A stretch of DNA of 21,787 nt from a virus. The translations under genes were made by a program, and so were the position numbers. The stretch is from IMG/VR virus record IMGVR_UViG_3300048583_000049, positions 1 through 21,787 of that record; one strand, written 5' to 3'. Of the stretch, positions 2,657 to 9,175 are shown piece by piece. The first letter of the stretch is position 1; every line of letters starts with the position of its first letter. The notes below the pieces were generated by a model, which ran no database searches, was not told where the DNA came from, and worked only from the letters and a program-made list of their open reading frames with translations.

Positions 2657-3820
2657 TCAGGCGGTTTCGAGCGAGTTGAGACCGGACGTATCGCCCATCG
2701 GGCCGAGGCCCTCAGAGCTGCGGACTTCCTCAGGGCTCAATGCCCCAAGCTCGACCGCAAGCTTGTAGACTTCCCAACGCGTCTTGGTGTCAGCGCGCGT
2801 CAGTGCATCAGTTGCCACGCGAACCTCAGTGCCATTCGGCTGTGTGGTGCTCATCGCGTCATTGATCGCTTCGGTGTACGTGCCGAGCGACGTGCGCAGG
2901 AACGTCACCCACTCCGTCTCCATGTTGCTGTAGACGCGGCTCTCCGACGGAACACCCAGCAGATACGGCGTGATGTTGAGGATGTCGCTGGCGAGACGTA
3001 GGTTGTACTCGCGCATCGGCACCAGAGCGAGGTCGTTGGCGTTCCACGTCACAGGACCGAACGTCGCGCGGCTCATCGCTGCGACGCTGCCTTCGTTCAT
3101 CGCCTTGACGAACGCATCCTTGTAGTCCTTGGCTTGCTCAGGAGTTGGGTCGCCCTCGAGGCTGATGATGCCGACAGGCCGACCGGACTTCATCACCACG
3201 TGGCTTGCGTGTTCCGTCTGCTTGATGAGCTGCAACGTATCCGGGTACATCTGCAAGATGCCGCGCCCCAGCTTGCAACCAGCCTTCGCGTTGACCTGGA
3301 AGTGCAGCAGGTCGCCCTCATCGACGTTCACCAGCTCAGGACCGACGCGCCACACCTTGTCGTAGTCGTCCCAGACGACGTCGGTTGCGCTGATCAGCGG
3401 CAGACGCAGCGGCCAACCGCGGCTGTCACTCACCTCAGGTCCGCGGTACGCGAACGCGTTGCCATGCCAGACGAGATCGGCCGTCACTGCACCCATCCAG
3501 CCGCTGCGCTTCAAGCCGATCGGATCAGGGTTGCGAAGGACTGTCGGCTGCGGCGCAACGGGGGTGTTGGGCGACGCAGGATCGAGCAAGCCTCGGTACG
3601 CAACCATCGGCAGCTGCGACACGACGCCGCTCATAAGTCGCACGCCGCGTCCCACGCCGGGAAGTCCCTCAGCGATCTCACGGCTCATCGGCGCAAAGCT
3701 CGCACCGTCGTTGATCAGACCTGGCCACAGGCCGAACTGGCCTTGACTCCAGTCAGAACCAAGCTGGACGCGTCCGCGTCGAGAGCTTGCAGGGAACAGC
3801 TCAGCCAGACCCATGGTCAT
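2657..3820 (-). CDS. Portal protein, HK97 family
   Basis: This 387-aa protein is predicted to form the dodecameric portal at one capsid vertex, through which the terminase pumps DNA. Family-like features include the N-terminal GLPGVGRGVRLMSGVVSQLP helix, which corresponds to the conserved start of the portal core, and the WHGNAFAY motif near residue 118. Further matches are a VMKSGRPVGIISLEGDPTPE stretch and the C-terminal VTFLRTSLGTY and LGALSPEEVRSSEGLGP segments. It is a little shorter than the HK97 portal. The start could be 3820 or a second ATG at 3814; the AAGGCGG site fits both. The start overlaps the end of the small membrane-protein gene by 20 bases. Confidence 0.92.
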   Translation of the reverse strand: MTMGLAELFPASSRRGRVQLGSDWSQGQFGLWPGLINDGASFAPMSREIAEGLPGVGRGVRLMSGVVSQLPMVAYRGLLDPASPNTPVAPQPTVLRNPDPIGLKRSGWMGAVTADLVWHGNAFAYRGPEVSDSRGWPLRLPLISATDVVWDDYDKVWRVGPELVNVDEGDLLHFQVNAKAGCKLGRGILQMYPDTLQLIKQTEHASHVVMKSGRPVGIISLEGDPTPEQAKDYKDAFVKAMNEGSVAAMSRATFGPVTWNANDLALVPMREYNLRLASDILNITPYLLGVPSESRVYSNMETEWVTFLRTSLGTYTEAINDAMSTTQPNGTEVRVATDALTRADTKTRWEVYKLAVELGALSPEEVRSSEGLGPMGDTSGLNSLETA

Positions 3821-3959
3821 CCGCCTTCTCGATGAGGTAGCCGACGACGACTAACGCGACGCCGCCTAGAACGAGTCCGAGCCACAGCTGCAGAAGCGAT
3901 GCGCCGATGCAGACGAGCGCCGCGCCAGCAAGCTGCAGTGCATTGCCAAGCCGCTTCAT
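3801..3959 (-). CDS. Small two-helix membrane protein between TerL and portal
   Basis: This 52-aa protein starts at the ATG at 3959, which shares one base with the terminase TGA stop (TGATG). A longer reading from 4001 would overlap the terminase end and is less likely. The protein has a short basic N-terminus (MKRLGN), then two closely spaced hydrophobic stretches at about residues 8-24 and 26-42, and a charged tail, IEKADDHGSG. It could form a membrane hairpin. I do not recognise a family. A membrane protein between terminase and portal is not part of the standard HK97 packaging module. A role in lysis or superinfection exclusion is possible but not shown. Confidence 0.7.
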   Translation of the reverse strand: MKRLGNALQLAGAALVCIGASLLQLWLGLVLGGVALVVVGYLIEKADDHGSG

Positions 3960-6004
3960 CACACCACCCACGCAACAGGTCGGTCCTTGCGGCTCGCCCA
4001 CCAGACGCTGACGGCAAGGGCGATCGCGGGCGCAGTCGTGTTGGGACTCAGCTTGTCGCTGATCCGATACGTGCTTGCTTCGCGACGGGCGACAGCGGTT
4101 CGAGCTGCATCACCCCAGTCTGCGGGACCATCGATCTTCAGCCAACCAGACTTGACGGCGGACAGCACCGTCGTTGTCGCGGCGGCGAGGTCACTCATGC
4201 CGAAGATCACGAGGTCCGTTGCTCCTTGTGGCTTAGTGATGCGGCCGCGGACGACGCGTGGAATGAGCAGCGTGACGCGCGAGCCGGGGAGGTTGATGAG
4301 GTCGTCGACGACAGCAAGTGCAGCGGTGTGAGAGCTGTACGAGCCCAAGTGTACCGCGGCAACCGTGTTGCTGGTGTCAGGCATTGCACCAACGAGCTGC
4401 CACCATTGCTGGTCGGTGTCAGGAACGAGCGTGACCGCGATGTCGCCGCGGAGCGTGATGCCGTCACGCTGCAAGTCCGCCCACTGACTTGGGTTGATCC
4501 ACGACTTGTCGCCGGCGTGGTCAGGCCAGATGTTGCGCCACTGCTGATCGAAGCCGGTGCGGCCGAGCTTCGCGGCGACGACTCGTTGACGCCGCTTCGT
4601 CCAGTGCGGACTCGCCTCACGCCAACCCTCGATGTCGTGGGCTGGGCGCGTTGGATCGCTGCTCCACTCAACCAACAGCGCGTCGTCCTCATCGACGATG
4701 TTCAACCGCGCGACCACCTTGCGACGCCGACCAGGGAACAGCTCGGTCGCTTCGCGGTGTGCGGTGCTGATGAGCCACAGTTGCGGCTGCTCGCGCTCCG
4801 CCAACACCGGCTCGATACCGTCGTCGACGACTTCGCTGCTGATGCCCCATGCTTCGTCCACCGCGCCGACGCCGGCTGAGTAGCCGTACACGCTACGCGT
4901 CGTGCGGATCGCCCAGCGACCTTCGTCAGGGAACTGGATCTCCTGCGTACCGGCGGAGTAGCGAACCTTGTAGCCAGCTTCCTCAGCCCAGACGCGACCG
5001 GGCCGCTGCACCTCGTCTGCGACGTTCAGATCCTTCGCGGTGTGCAGGATGAACTGCGGTTCGCCGAACAGCTCGGACGCGTGGCCGCGCCACAGGGCAA
5101 GTTCACGCAGCAGCACCGACTTGCCGACCTGCCGCGACGTCGACAGCAGCACCGTCTCCCAGACGAGCGCGCCATCCTCGTCGTGTTCGAGCACGCGGAC
5201 CACGAACAGCTTCTGAAACCACCGCAGCTTCTTCTGCTTGGCTGGGATCCGCTCATCCGCTGCCCGACGCTTCTCGATCCAGTCGATCGCGTCGTAGCCA
5301 TGCGTCCCCGTCGCAAGCGGGTGGCGACCACTCATCACGCGCGGCCACACCGCGTCGGGCCCCATCTGGTCTACAACAGGCTGCAACCACGGCATCAGGG
5401 CCGCGGCGGCCTGCGCCAGGGCTGCATCGTCCTGCGCCGGCCCGTGGAACGGTTCGGGCAGTCCGACATCAGTTGAGTACGGGCCATTGCTCGGGGCCAC
5501 AGGATCGCGCTCGGTCGCGTTGCGATCGTCCGGTGATTGCTTGCCAGGGCCTGCCTCCGTGGAGCTCTCTGAGCCCCTCGTCGCCTCCGAGGAGGAGTCC
5601 TTCTTGAGTGTCGGGGTTGGCTGCGCGCCCGTCGAGAAAGCGGGCGGCAACGCTGCGTGACGACCGGGTGGCTCGACGGCTTCATCGCCAGACTTCTGAT
5701 GCACCGCGCGCCTCGTGCTGGTGACGCCGAGGCTTCGCTTGCCTTCAGCCACGAGCGCAGCGATCTGCTTGCCACCATGGCTGGCATTGCAGCGCTGGTG
5801 AGACGGCGCAAGACGGTCCAACGGAACGATCTCGCTGTGACCCATCACCAACGGATCGAGGTGGTCGATGGTCGGACCGAACGGATGGTTGCCGCTCAGC
5901 TCGTAGTGGATCTGGCCGCCACACCTGCAGCACGGCTCATCGTCTTCGCGCGCCATCGCGAGCCGCTGCAATCGCAGCGTGTTCCAGCTACCCGGCTTCG
6001 TCAC
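3959..6004 (-). CDS. Large terminase subunit with N-terminal HNH domain
   Basis: This 681-aa protein starts at a GTG at 6004 after an AGGAGG Shine-Dalgarno. Residues 1 to about 85 form an HNH nuclease: a CxxC at 25-28, IDHLDP with His48, and HQRCN with His69 and Asn73. Residues 95-195 are a low-complexity linker rich in Pro, Ser, Thr and Glu. The rest is a TerL ATPase, with a Walker A-like SRQVGKS at 290-296, Walker B VDEAW at 382-386 and the coupling motif LISTA at 411-415. The C-terminal part, about 510-681, is where the RNase H-like nuclease should be, but its acidic triad is not obvious. TerL powers DNA packaging at the portal and cuts concatemers. HNH proteins beside terminases assist cos cleavage in HK97-type phages. 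No separate small terminase gene is seen nearby. The start overlaps the resolvase gene by 17 bases. Confidence 0.9.
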   Translation of the reverse strand: MTKPGSWNTLRLQRLAMAREDDEPCCRCGGQIHYELSGNHPFGPTIDHLDPLVMGHSEIVPLDRLAPSHQRCNASHGGKQIAALVAEGKRSLGVTSTRRAVHQKSGDEAVEPPGRHAALPPAFSTGAQPTPTLKKDSSSEATRGSESSTEAGPGKQSPDDRNATERDPVAPSNGPYSTDVGLPEPFHGPAQDDAALAQAAAALMPWLQPVVDQMGPDAVWPRVMSGRHPLATGTHGYDAIDWIEKRRAADERIPAKQKKLRWFQKLFVVRVLEHDEDGALVWETVLLSTSRQVGKSVLLRELALWRGHASELFGEPQFILHTAKDLNVADEVQRPGRVWAEEAGYKVRYSAGTQEIQFPDEGRWAIRTTRSVYGYSAGVGAVDEAWGISSEVVDDGIEPVLAEREQPQLWLISTAHREATELFPGRRRKVVARLNIVDEDDALLVEWSSDPTRPAHDIEGWREASPHWTKRRQRVVAAKLGRTGFDQQWRNIWPDHAGDKSWINPSQWADLQRDGITLRGDIAVTLVPDTDQQWWQLVGAMPDTSNTVAAVHLGSYSSHTAALAVVDDLINLPGSRVTLLIPRVVRGRITKPQGATDLVIFGMSDLAAATTTVLSAVKSGWLKIDGPADWGDAARTAVARREASTYRISDKLSPNTTAPAIALAVSVWWASRKDRPVAWVV

Positions 6005-6353
6005 GTCGAACCTCCTGGTACTGCTGCACCGCTCGGATCACCATCGGTACGTGGCGCGGATCGATCAGCCAATACGCATCCTCAGGACTGGTGCTACCTT
6101 TCCGCTTCGCGCACAGCAAGCCGAGCACAGCTCCATCGTTGTCCACCTCGCGCTGAAGCTCCTGCATCCATGGCTTCAGCGTCAGTGTGCCGTGGTTCTT
6201 CGCCTCGATCACGACTCCAGCCAGACCGGCGATGTCGCCACGATCTGCCGACCCCGTCAGCGCTCGACGCTCAACCGCCGTGTGACCGCGGCTGATCAGC
6301 CACTTCACGATGGACGATTCCCACCACGTACCCTTTGCCTTGGCTGCACTCAT
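5988..6353 (-). CDS. PD-(D/E)XK endonuclease, Holliday-junction resolvase-like
   Basis: This 121-aa protein has the layout of small archaeal-Hjc/VRR-type nucleases. It opens with a helix, GTWWESSIVKWLISRG, holding the first acidic residue, Glu12. A strand then reaches Asp40 in SADRGDIAGL, followed by Glu50-Ala-Lys52 in VVIEAKN. These make up the metal-binding PD-(D/E)XK site. The likely substrates are branched replication or recombination intermediates that must be resolved before packaging, which fits its place immediately before the terminase gene. The start at 6353 follows GAGGA. A role as an exonuclease or a packaging cofactor cannot be excluded. Confidence 0.8.
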   Translation of the reverse strand: MSAAKAKGTWWESSIVKWLISRGHTAVERRALTGSADRGDIAGLAGVVIEAKNHGTLTLKPWMQELQREVDNDGAVLGLLCAKRKGSTSPEDAYWLIDPRHVPMVIRAVQQYQEVRRDEAG

Positions 6354-6365
6354 AGTCGCGCATCC

Positions 6366-6533
6366 TCACACGTGTCGATGATCAACGCGTCCATGTGACC
6401 ACCGATCTTCATGCTCGGAGTCGTGGCATTCGCGCAAGCCGGCCAGCTTCTTCTCGTCTCCGACGTACACCCCGTGCAGCATCCACAGGTGGCTTCGTAG
6501 GTCCTGCGGTGTTGCTGGCTTCGGAACGTTCAT
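6366..6533 (-). CDS. Small His/Cys-rich protein, LxxHLxxxHG type
   Basis: This 55-aa ORF runs from the ATG at 6533 to a TGA at 6368-6366, just 12 bases before the resolvase start. It shows the spacing LRSHLWMLHG, then LAGLRECHDSEH, then a C-terminal VDHRHV. I recall this LxxHLxxxHG...LxxxHxxxH...HxH pattern from many small actinobacterial and actinophage proteins of unknown function. The regularly spaced His and the Cys suggest metal binding. The upstream GAGGCAGG is a passable ribosome-binding site. It is too short to be certain, but it fills the gap in phase with the operon. Confidence 0.6.
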   Translation of the reverse strand: MNVPKPATPQDLRSHLWMLHGVYVGDEKKLAGLRECHDSEHEDRWSHGRVDHRHV

Positions 6534-6552
6534 CAGGCCTGCCTCGAGCTGC

Positions 6553-6772
6553 TTGTCTCACGTCTCACGGGTATAGATACCCCCGTGAGACGAGACAAAG
6601 AGGCGGCTGTCTCACGAGACGCGATGAGACAAGATGAGACAGTGAGACAAAGTACTCCTTGGTCAACCCTGGCTTGAATCTCTTGTCTCACGGGCTTGTC
6701 TCACCATCTGGCAGATGGTAGCTCCCACGCTTGTCTCGTCTCACTCGCTTGTCTCGGTACAGGTGAGACAAG
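6553..6772. repeat. GAGAC/GTCTC repeat cluster
   Basis: Fifteen copies of the pentamer GAGAC or its complement GTCTC fall in 220 bases; most are extended to TGAGAC, and many to TGAGACAAG. They start near 6555, 6562, 6586, 6592, 6609, 6616, 6625, 6635, 6643, 6685, 6698, 6733, 6738, 6751 and 6764. Chance would give about half a copy. Copies at 6553-6598 form an inverted repeat around TATAGATA. The cluster spans the non-coding gap after the primase/helicase gene and runs into its last codons, where AGACAAG encodes Arg-Asp-Lys twice. A 15-base palindrome, CCATCTGGCAGATGG, sits inside it at 6704-6718. It has the look of an iteron-type origin or a multi-site operator. Confidence 0.85.
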
Positions 6773-8529
6773 ATTCTGTGGACCTTCGACTTGTCGTAAC
6801 CGGTCCTCTCGACCAGCTCCCGGATCGTCCGACAGTCCTCCATGGCGGCCAAGATCATGGCTTCCGCTTGCTCATCGCGGACGATGTCGTGGATGCTCGT
6901 CGGTGGATCGATGACGAGGACCACGCCGTCTCCCGTGCTGTCCATCGTCGCGGTCCCCCAGTGCCTCGCTTCAGCGTCTGCTCGTACACCGCCCAGCCTG
7001 TCCTTCTCGATGGTGAGCTTCAGCTTGCCGATCCGCCCTGGGACTGGCTGGGTGATGGCGTCCACGTAGATGTAGCTGCCGTTCACCATCGCCTTCTTGC
7101 CGCCAGCGCCGATCGCGTACTTGGTGTTGCCGGCGTCCTTGGTGATGTGGTCGACTGTGATGATGCAGCAACCAGTCTCATCGGCGAACAGGGCGAGAGG
7201 GCGGAGACCTCGCCGCACCTCGTCGTTGTCCAGGCTCTTGAGTCCCAGCATTGGCAGCAGCTCGCCGATCGAGTCCACAACCAGGAGCGTCGGCTTCTCG
7301 TCGATGAGCTGCTTCATCGTGATCCGGTACTGAGCAGCTCCATCTGGCTCGTACAGCCTGAAGCGGCTGGGGTCTGCGATCGCCGCCGGTTCAAGCCCCA
7401 AGGCTGCGAGCCACAGCACCAGCTGCTCGCTTCCGTTGTGGTCGATGTCGACGAACACCGCGAAGCCACCTTGCTTCACTTCCTCGACGATCGCCGCCAG
7501 CGCAATCCACGTCTTGCCAGACTCCGGAGCGCCGTAGATCCCGTTCACCTTGCCGCGGTAGAACAGGCACTTGCCATCGGCTCGACTTAGCAGCTCACCG
7601 GGTCGCGGCTTCGGCCACTGGTCTTCGGGGAGCAGGGCCCAGGACAAGTCCCGGAACTCACTGGTCGCGTCCTCTGCCTCGTCCGCATCATCGGTGGGTG
7701 CTTGCAAGGTCTCAGACTGGACGCGAGCAGACGGACCATCCAGGGTCCACGCTTGATCGAGCTCGTGGATCGCGTCGCTGAGCTCGTACGGTCGACGCGG
7801 CGTGGACTCGATCCGCGGCATCAGCTCGCGCATTGCGCGGACAGCCTGCGTGAACGTGAAGCCGCGAGCGCGAAGCGAGCAAGCGTACCTGTAGACGATG
7901 TCGTGGCGTTGCCCATCTGGGATCCAGTCCGGCAGCTCGAAGCCTGAGCCCAAGACGGCATGCACACCAGCGTCGATGCTGCCGCTTGGCTGGTCGTCGC
8001 GGCTTGGCAGCAGCTTCCGTAGCTCGAACGGAATCGTCGGGATACCGCCGCTCGTCTCCCAGTGGTAGACGTTCTCGCCGCCGTCCTTGTGGACCGTCGG
8101 CGCCGCGTGGATGTACCCCATGCCGGTCCTGGTGTCGATGCCCGGCAACACCTTGGTGCCTTGCTTCACCGTCCCGTCGCCGACGAAGACGAAGTGGTAG
8201 CCGCGGAACGTTCGTTGCTTCGGTGCTCCACTGCGCTCGAGCATCTCCAGCACGTCAGCCGTGACGGCAGTCGGATCGTCGACATCGATGACGACCAGCG
8301 ACTCGTGGTGAAGTCCGATGCCGTTCGCGGCGGTGCCGGCGAACATCGCAGTGATGACCTGCGGATCAGTCGACGCTTCCTTGAAGCCGTGCTTGGTCAG
8401 CGGGAACGTCATCTTGTTCTGCGTGATCACCGGGAACACTTCAATCCCACCGGACGCGTAGCTCAACGCCGCCTCGAGGAGTGATGCACCGGGATCTGGC
8501 GGGACGATCCTGAGGTTCGGCTCAGTCAT
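6688..8529 (-). CDS. Primase-polymerase/helicase fusion
   Basis: This 613-aa protein begins at the ATG at 8529, which has a GAGGAG site; the 61-residue extension to 8712 is low complexity and rejected. Residues 15-175 are a prim-pol (archaeo-eukaryotic primase) domain, with YASGGIEVFPV, KHGFKEAS and the metal-binding DVDD at 82-85. A linker and helical region follow. A RecA/RepA-like helicase ATPase comes next, with Walker A GAPESGKT at 333-340 and Walker B LLVVDS at 415-420. Residues 545-610 form a winged helix (SKVHRILSHLY) ending in a basic tail. It likely primes and unwinds phage DNA. No phage DNA polymerase is visible, so host polymerase is probably recruited. The gene's 3' end overlaps the GAGAC repeats. 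Confidence 0.88.
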   Translation of the reverse strand: MTEPNLRIVPPDPGASLLEAALSYASGGIEVFPVITQNKMTFPLTKHGFKEASTDPQVITAMFAGTAANGIGLHHESLVVIDVDDPTAVTADVLEMLERSGAPKQRTFRGYHFVFVGDGTVKQGTKVLPGIDTRTGMGYIHAAPTVHKDGGENVYHWETSGGIPTIPFELRKLLPSRDDQPSGSIDAGVHAVLGSGFELPDWIPDGQRHDIVYRYACSLRARGFTFTQAVRAMRELMPRIESTPRRPYELSDAIHELDQAWTLDGPSARVQSETLQAPTDDADEAEDATSEFRDLSWALLPEDQWPKPRPGELLSRADGKCLFYRGKVNGIYGAPESGKTWIALAAIVEEVKQGGFAVFVDIDHNGSEQLVLWLAALGLEPAAIADPSRFRLYEPDGAAQYRITMKQLIDEKPTLLVVDSIGELLPMLGLKSLDNDEVRRGLRPLALFADETGCCIITVDHITKDAGNTKYAIGAGGKKAMVNGSYIYVDAITQPVPGRIGKLKLTIEKDRLGGVRADAEARHWGTATMDSTGDGVVLVIDPPTSIHDIVRDEQAEAMILAAMEDCRTIRELVERTGYDKSKVHRILSHLYRDKRVRRDKRGSYHLPDGETSP

Positions 8530-8599
8530 TGGTACAGTTCTCCTCGGTTGCTTGGTGGCGACCAGCTCCGGCCGCTTCCCACGATTCGGTTGTTGAGCG

Positions 8600-8642
8600 A
8601 GCAACGGCGGCTGCTTTCCGCGAGGAGGCAGCCGCCGTTGCT
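8600..8642 (-). terminator. Perfect 15-bp stem hairpin
   Basis: The arms at 8600-8614 and 8628-8642 are exact reverse complements (15 of 15), with a 13-base loop. The hairpin starts 15 bases after the stop of the SSB-like gene and lies before the primase leader, where a transcription terminator or mRNA-processing hairpin would sit. There is no U-tract on either strand, so an intrinsic terminator of the standard type is not proven. Confidence 0.5.
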
Positions 8643-8656
8643 GTCTTACCGCCTGA

Positions 8657-9175
8657 TCAGAACGGCGGCTTGTCGCCGACGACTTCGCCGCCGAACGCCT
8701 CAGCAAGGTCATCAGCGTCGAGCAGAGCCGGCGGCGTGTACTTCGCCTCGAACTGCTTGGCTCCGTTCATGCCGCGCTTCTTGGGCTCAGCATCATCGGT
8801 GTACGTGACGCTGAGCGTCCCGCCAACCTCGAGCTTCGCTCCTGCCGCCCGCAGCGCCTTGGCGATGGCAGCCTTCATGGCGGCCTTGTTGATGACGATC
8901 TGGCGAGTACCGTCGTCATCCTCGATGGTCTTGTCGCGGAGCTCGGTCTTGACGATCACCGCAACCTCCATCATCGGGCTGCCGTCGTCCCACGTCTTCA
9001 GCTCGCCGGACTCGATGTCGCGGCTCTGCCGAGACTTGGCGGACTGCACGACACCGGTGACGGTTGCCCCGCGCTCCTTGAAGGATGCCCACGGAACGCC
9101 GCCACTCAGCAGCATGTCGTTGACATCATCGAATGCGTCATTCGCACTCATGTGTTCACCTGTTCCCTTGTTCAT
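8657..9175 (-). CDS. Putative single-stranded DNA-binding protein
   Basis: This is a 172-aa protein if started at the ATG at 9175, which overlaps the HNH gene stop (ATGA). An ATG at 9151 with an AGGTG site is an alternative and would give 164 aa. The core, ERGATVTGVVQSAKSRQSRD, then WDDGSPMMEVAVIVKTE, and later LEVGGTLSVTY, has the strand pattern of an OB fold and resembles a protein often seen next to actinophage replication genes. The acidic C-terminal end, DADDLAEAF to the final DKPPF, looks like the acidic tail and PF tip that SSB proteins use to recruit partners. It is placed directly upstream of the primase/helicase. Confidence 0.6.
   Translation of the reverse strand: MNKGTGEHMSANDAFDDVNDMLLSGGVPWASFKERGATVTGVVQSAKSRQSRDIESGELKTWDDGSPMMEVAVIVKTELRDKTIEDDDGTRQIVINKAAMKAAIAKALRAAGAKLEVGGTLSVTYTDDAEPKKRGMNGAKQFEAKYTPPALLDADDLAEAFGGEVVGDKPPF

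Follow-up and report, generated by a model that had tools for sequence, protein, structure and literature searches.

The question raised by this locus is whether a dense cluster of GAGAC/GTCTC repeats at the end of a phage primase-helicase gene serves as an origin of replication, as a control region or as a packaging site. The stretch of DNA analysed (the window) is a whole IMG/VR virus record of 21,787 bases, which is probably a fragment since it is classed as linear. The likely genes all lie on the minus strand and comprise tail, nucleotide-metabolism, exonuclease and endonuclease VII genes, the Prim-Pol/helicase gene (8712..6688), a 55-aa ORF, and RusA-like, terminase, portal and head genes. 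The large terminase ORF (3959-6004) consists of an HNH-endonuclease-like N-terminal part (PHROG 338 and 8660; residues ~6-90) fused to the terminase. The features of the locus are summarized in Table 1.

Table 1. Features of the repeat locus and their coordinates in the window
Feature	Position	Strand	Detail or basis
Iteron cluster, proposed replication origin core	6552..6772	.	15 GAGAC copies, consensus GTGAGACAAG, both orientations
Coding part of the iteron cluster, at the 3' end of the primase-helicase gene	6692..6772	.	Sites 6698, 6733, 6738, 6751, 6765
Inverted repeat CGTCTCACGGG-10 nt-CCCGTGAGACG, hairpin-forming	6561..6592	.	Further inverted iterons on the flanks
AT-richer stretch between iterons, weak candidate unwinding element	6600..6680	.	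<=52% AT in 60 nt vs average ~37%
Primase-helicase, 674 aa, proposed initiator	6688..8712	-	Pfam, PHROGs, AlphaFold models, structure-profile search
C-terminal winged helix-turn-helix, proposed iteron-reading domain	6718..6873	-	HTH_IclR; single-sequence model
55-aa ORF (MNVPKPATPQDLRSHLW...)	6366..6533	-	Directly 3' of the iterons

Number and background frequency of the repeats

The number, orientation and background of the repeats were analysed. Fifteen pentamers were counted at 6555-6769, eight as GTCTC and seven as GAGAC on the plus strand, with an irregular spacing of 5-41 nt, and within the cluster TGAGACAAG was present in five exact copies and in five more with one mismatch. In 300 first-order Markov simulations the richest 220-nt stretch held at most 6 pentamers (mean 4.35), and the 15 pentamers in 220 bases, in both orientations, given in the initial annotation are borne out by counts and simulations. 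No other 5-mer of the window was as strongly clustered locally as GAGAC, and pieces of GTGAGACAAG headed all the lists of clustered words from k=5 to k=10; such clustering of short direct and inverted repeats far above chance is the pattern of an iteron origin. The density had been put at about 30 times chance, a value that fits the observed background, as the rest of the window holds 46 copies or 0.47 per 220 nt, but is too high against dinucleotide shuffles (83.5 copies per window), relative to which the cluster is about 18 times as dense.

Avoidance of a restriction site was considered separately for the depletion of GAGAC outside the cluster against dinucleotide shuffles, and was dropped because second- and third-order expectations show no such depletion.

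Position and internal elements of the cluster

The cluster covers the final 85 nt of the primase-helicase gene and the gap behind the gene. The location at the gene end is as initially annotated, but the array already starts inside the gene, where the five coding sites at 6698-6765 fall in the last 28 codons and hence in the wing of the winged helix. The wing RDKRVRRDKRGSYH is coded by iteron DNA, and the proposed reading domain would be partly encoded by its own putative binding sites; in the related locus L008 (4303-4424) the repeats likewise lie within the 3' coding end.

The near-perfect inverted repeat that had been annotated at 6553-6598 exists as perfect 11-bp arms at 6561-6571/6582-6592, while ungapped 22-nt arms are 73% complementary. 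The stem of this hairpin includes GGTATCTATACC on the minus strand. The inverted pair around GGGTATCTATACCC resembles the layout of the relatives described below, but its G-rich arm precedes its C-rich arm. The GC skew revealed no switch at 6.6 kb in the window, the record being a probable fragment, and no usable switch in the relatives MinS1 and P8625.

The primase-helicase as proposed initiator

The Pfam matches of the protein were limited to Prim-Pol (residues 82-221, E 5e-22), an AAA_25/RecA-fold helicase (residues 383-527, E 2e-11) and a C-terminal winged helix of the HTH_IclR family (residues 621-660, E = 1.9e-5). The AAA_25 helicase presumably resembles RSF1010 RepA. A single-sequence model of the C-terminus gave a pLDDT of 77-91 across the winged helix, and the full-length AlphaFold model, built without phage-record proteins, was of mixed quality with a mean pLDDT of 67.5. 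A profile search against solved structures matched the protein to RecA and to the prim-pol of pRN1 ORF904 (1rni). When the winged-helix model was searched against PDB folds, IclR and Z-alpha winged helices were among the nearest hits, none of them below E = 0.001. As in known iteron origins, the repeats adjoin and overlap the gene of a replication initiator, here a proposed one.

Repeats at the same place in relatives

A single-protein peptide search of IMG/VR returned no relatives and blastn against 50,697 phage records gave no DNA match to the window; the relatives were obtained only through an alignment search, which provided the best 80 of 244 IMG/VR loci and 53 loci from actinobacterial genomes. 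Among the first four relatives, MinS1 and P8625 had dense repeats of unrelated sequence just 3' of the homologous gene, Hendrix had weaker ones, and Dulem virus 38 had none behind this gene.

The larger set of 94 loci contained phages, prophages, genome loci and two small plasmids, its IMG/VR part being taken from the best 80 of 244. The densest repeat window was centred at -200..+400 of the stop of the gene in 66 of these 94 relatives (70%), compared with 8.5% expected by position and 9/441 (2%) for the other ORFs of the same loci; the binomial value for this excess overstates the certainty, since the genome loci were not dereplicated. For dereplicated loci (IMG/VR again limited to the best 80 of 244), the 300 nt at the gene end outscored all other windows in 28 of 42.

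The repeat sequence turns over while its position is conserved, and the motifs vary by lineage (ACTGTTCCG, CTGTTTCCC, AACCGATCCG, AACCGAACC, GCGTTGTGG, ACCTCGTCCC and CTATCGGCA among others). Many arrays have a common layout of iterons, a gap, an iteron pair, a C-tract/TATA/G-tract hairpin at about +70 to +130, and inverted iterons. A small ORF stands at the place of the 55-aa ORF in several relatives as well. Some loci are exceptions: L168, L172, L173, L175, L178, L179 and L215 have the array at the 5' end of the helicase ORF, and L020 has it a few hundred bases farther downstream. In the former seven, which are actinobacterial prophages, the arrays are mostly CGGTTCCCGGTTCC and immediately precede the helicase domain, about 1.0-1.15 kb upstream of the helicase stop. 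Of the closer relatives, L017 has no cluster at the gene end and L007 a modest one, and the matches listed contained no relative in which an orthologous gene close to that of the window is accompanied by the same repeat. The comparison with related phages suggested by the initial annotation thus revealed repeats at the same place in most of them, with other sequences, and the absence on which the origin would have been given up was not encountered.

MinS1 is catalogued as infecting Microcystis, but an actinobacterial host is suggested by the presence of an Lsr2-family gene and by helicase relatives in Actinomycetota.

Joint exchange of winged helix and repeats

The relatives L036 and L054 represent a natural swap. 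Their proteins are 98% identical in the N-terminal part, 99% in the helicase and 43% in the C-terminal part, and their iterons are ACTGTTCCG and AACCGAACC, respectively. The DNA of the two loci is about 90-100% identical outside -300..+200, about 50% identical from -300 to +150, and recovers at +200. This drop in identity indicates that the winged helix and the repeats were exchanged as one piece, composed of about 300 nt encoding the winged helix and about 150-200 nt of repeats. In L021 and L022 the C-termini are identical and the repeats are one base apart. For helicase pairs more than 85% identical, the mean C-terminal identity was 0.77 with the same motif versus 0.61 with different motifs.

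Over all the relatives (IMG/VR: best 80 of 244), the similarity of the motifs had a partial rho of 0.01 with the C-terminus versus 0.22 with the helicase. Since this global partial correlation showed nothing, the evidence for reading by the winged helix is that of one clade, which excludes the window, and consists of the local swap and the within-clade trend. The evidence renders it likely that the phage's own primase-helicase reads the iterons through its C-terminal winged helix.

Plasmids and DNA-only search

The plasmids p-XQ-29-C (Streptomyces griseoaurantiacus) and pKRAD02 (Kineococcus radiotolerans) both carry the helicase gene with repeats at its 3' end, and a terminase annotation was found on neither. 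A blind scan of 2.9 M viral contigs, based on the DNA alone with three spaced TTGTCTC(A) as query, revealed 74 stretches. Ten dense clusters with a sizeable neighbouring ORF were chosen for identification of this ORF, which in nine of the ten was a replication protein of the AAA_25, DUF927, DUF3987 or O-type families and in the tenth could be assigned to no family; the repeats were just 3' of the AAA_25, DUF927 and DUF3987 primase/helicase genes and inside the O-type genes. When BLAST was added, at least 16 of the 74 stretches were at loci of these families. As judged from these sequences, the occurrence of clusters beside four families implies that TTGTCTC(A) octamer clusters arose beside several unrelated initiators.

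TTGTCTC(A) repeats directly 3' of a DUF927 primase-helicase gene were seen in L142, L145, L153, L155, L091, L096, L105 and L137. In L141 an O-type replication initiation gene contains ten copies of TGAGACA/TGTCTCA (3815-3952), an arrangement similar to that of phage lambda, whose origin lies in gene O.

Proposed mechanism

The iteron origin beside the prim-pol/helicase, as first proposed, is supported by the position of the repeats, the joint swap, the plasmids and the blind search, and the cluster is very likely the replication origin of this phage. The C-terminal winged helix would bind several GTGAGACAAG sites of both orientations, which lie in the 3' end of the gene encoding it and in the DNA immediately following. 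The assembled helicase would open the DNA at the iterons, perhaps with help from the hairpin (6561-6592) and the AT-richer stretch, and the first primers would be made by the Prim-Pol domain. Binding, opening, priming and origin activity are steps that we infer from sequence comparison.

Alternative explanations

An autoregulatory operator array, in which the winged helix or another HTH protein only controls transcription across the primase-to-terminase boundary as an early/late switch, is unlikely. The repeats do sit between the replication gene and the RusA/terminase operon, all on the same strand, and a repressor could occupy numerous short sites of either orientation. However, the repeats accompany the helicase gene in relatives whose downstream genes are not the same, several prophages, mycobacterial ones among them, carry the array at the 5' end of this ORF, and the plasmids and the blind search link such arrays to replication genes. 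The absence of terminator- or promoter-like sites in 6200-7000 neither favours nor excludes operators. The multi-operator option of the initial annotation is retained to the extent that the array may also repress its own gene, and is less likely as the sole function.

The packaging start site (of pac or cos type, recognised by the small terminase), also offered at first, is highly improbable. It would agree with the large terminase gene, which begins about 0.5 kb beyond the repeats in the window, and with the repeats of P8625 at the end of its record. It is disfavoured because the module is carried by two plasmids, which have no packaging and no annotated terminase, and because the terminase of MinS1 is about 6 kb from the repeats; the repeats also change together with the C-terminus of the helicase.

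There is very little probability that the inverted repeats act as an RNA element or terminator, folding in the transcript and stopping or protecting it. The single-strand DNA fold of 6540-6780 is far better than that of shuffles (z = -6.3) and a GC-rich hairpin is present in many relatives, but repeats in both orientations produce folding automatically. Moreover, no terminator-like site with a T run was found in 6200-7000, the Rfam search of the locus gave a chance match only, with no meaningful score, part of the array is coding, and structure cannot by itself explain a locus-specific common octamer that differs between loci.

Chance or a functionless local tandem duplication, in whose favour the closest relatives lack a shared sequence, is practically negligible, as the simulations never came near the count of the cluster, the spacing is irregular with both orientations, and the same position in most relatives (66/94; IMG/VR: best 80 of 244) contradicts it.

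Comparison with known systems

By analogy with SaPI Rep, SCCmec Cch2, P4 alpha and pRN1 ORF904 (PMC7581432, PMC4234260), the working principle of the proposed origin is already known. PMC7581432 assigns the SaPI Rep helicases to the DUF927 or D5/Primase_Cterm type, relating SaPIbov1 Rep to DUF927, and the C-terminal domain of Rep recognises a multi-iteron origin directly 3' of its own gene (Ubeda et al. 2007, via PMC7581432). Iterons directly 3' of the gene of a self-encoded helicase, here a predicted initiator, are likewise found in the window and in most relatives. In contrast to SaPI Rep, the window protein joins a RecA-fold (AAA_25) helicase to an AEP Prim-Pol and to a winged helix that Pfam recognises, with no DUF927 or D5/Primase_Cterm helicase in Pfam, and its iterons extend into the gene. 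Nor is the window a capsid-less satellite, as portal, major head protein and large terminase are encoded (PHROGs). In SCCmec, the C-terminal domain of the D5-type helicase Cch2 binds direct repeats 3' of its gene, three AAGTG iterons, and the A-family polymerase-primase is separate (PMC7581432). A helicase gene with repeats downstream and predicted C-terminal reading is common to both, whereas the window has about 15 sites and a fused Prim-Pol.

The architecture of Prim-Pol, helicase and C-terminal winged helix in one protein is that of pRN1 ORF904, which has an SF3 helicase and whose plasmid has an essential stem-loop element within 166 bp 3' of the ORF904 gene; specific binding by ORF904 could not be demonstrated, and similar phage proteins are mentioned (PMC4234260). 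The Prim-Pol of the window protein is related to it by profile (1rni). It differs in its AAA_25/RecA helicase, and 15 iterons with a short hairpin stand in place of one large stem-loop without iterons. As described in PMC4234260, P4 alpha is a multifunctional Toprim-type primase-helicase whose winged helix binds origin repeats, and RSF1010 RepA, RepB' and RepC carry out iteron recognition, helicase and primase functions at an origin with iterons and short ssi hairpins. The window protein is similar to P4 alpha as a primase-helicase with a winged helix and origin repeats, whose binding is predicted, and differs in its Prim-Pol; unlike the three separate proteins of RSF1010, it is a single fused protein. 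A short search of open-licence papers brought up no description of this type of helicase, of its fusion, of iterons reaching into the gene or of the scale seen in actinobacterial elements, and the main text of the P8625 and MinS1 genome papers has no passage on such repeats or an origin.

Biological significance

It is conceivable, though somewhat doubtful, that the winged helix and the iterons form an exchangeable 'specificity cassette', in which the reading domain is replaced along with its sites by recombination. As part of this tentative reading, the cassette would belong to phages, prophages and plasmids, mainly actinobacterial, that have AAA_25 primase-helicases and make up a large group not recognised so far. 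If this is true, replicons would switch their origin specificity, avoiding incompatibility or parasites, while the engine is retained. The finding supplies a testable origin for a phage group in which none was found described in a short search of open-licence papers, and with it a rule for finding origins, namely to search both ends of the primase-helicase gene for the densest short repeats. Natural pairs that share the motor and differ in both reading domain and repeats through a swap offer ready tests of how an initiator chooses its origin, and small actinobacterial vectors could build on such modules.
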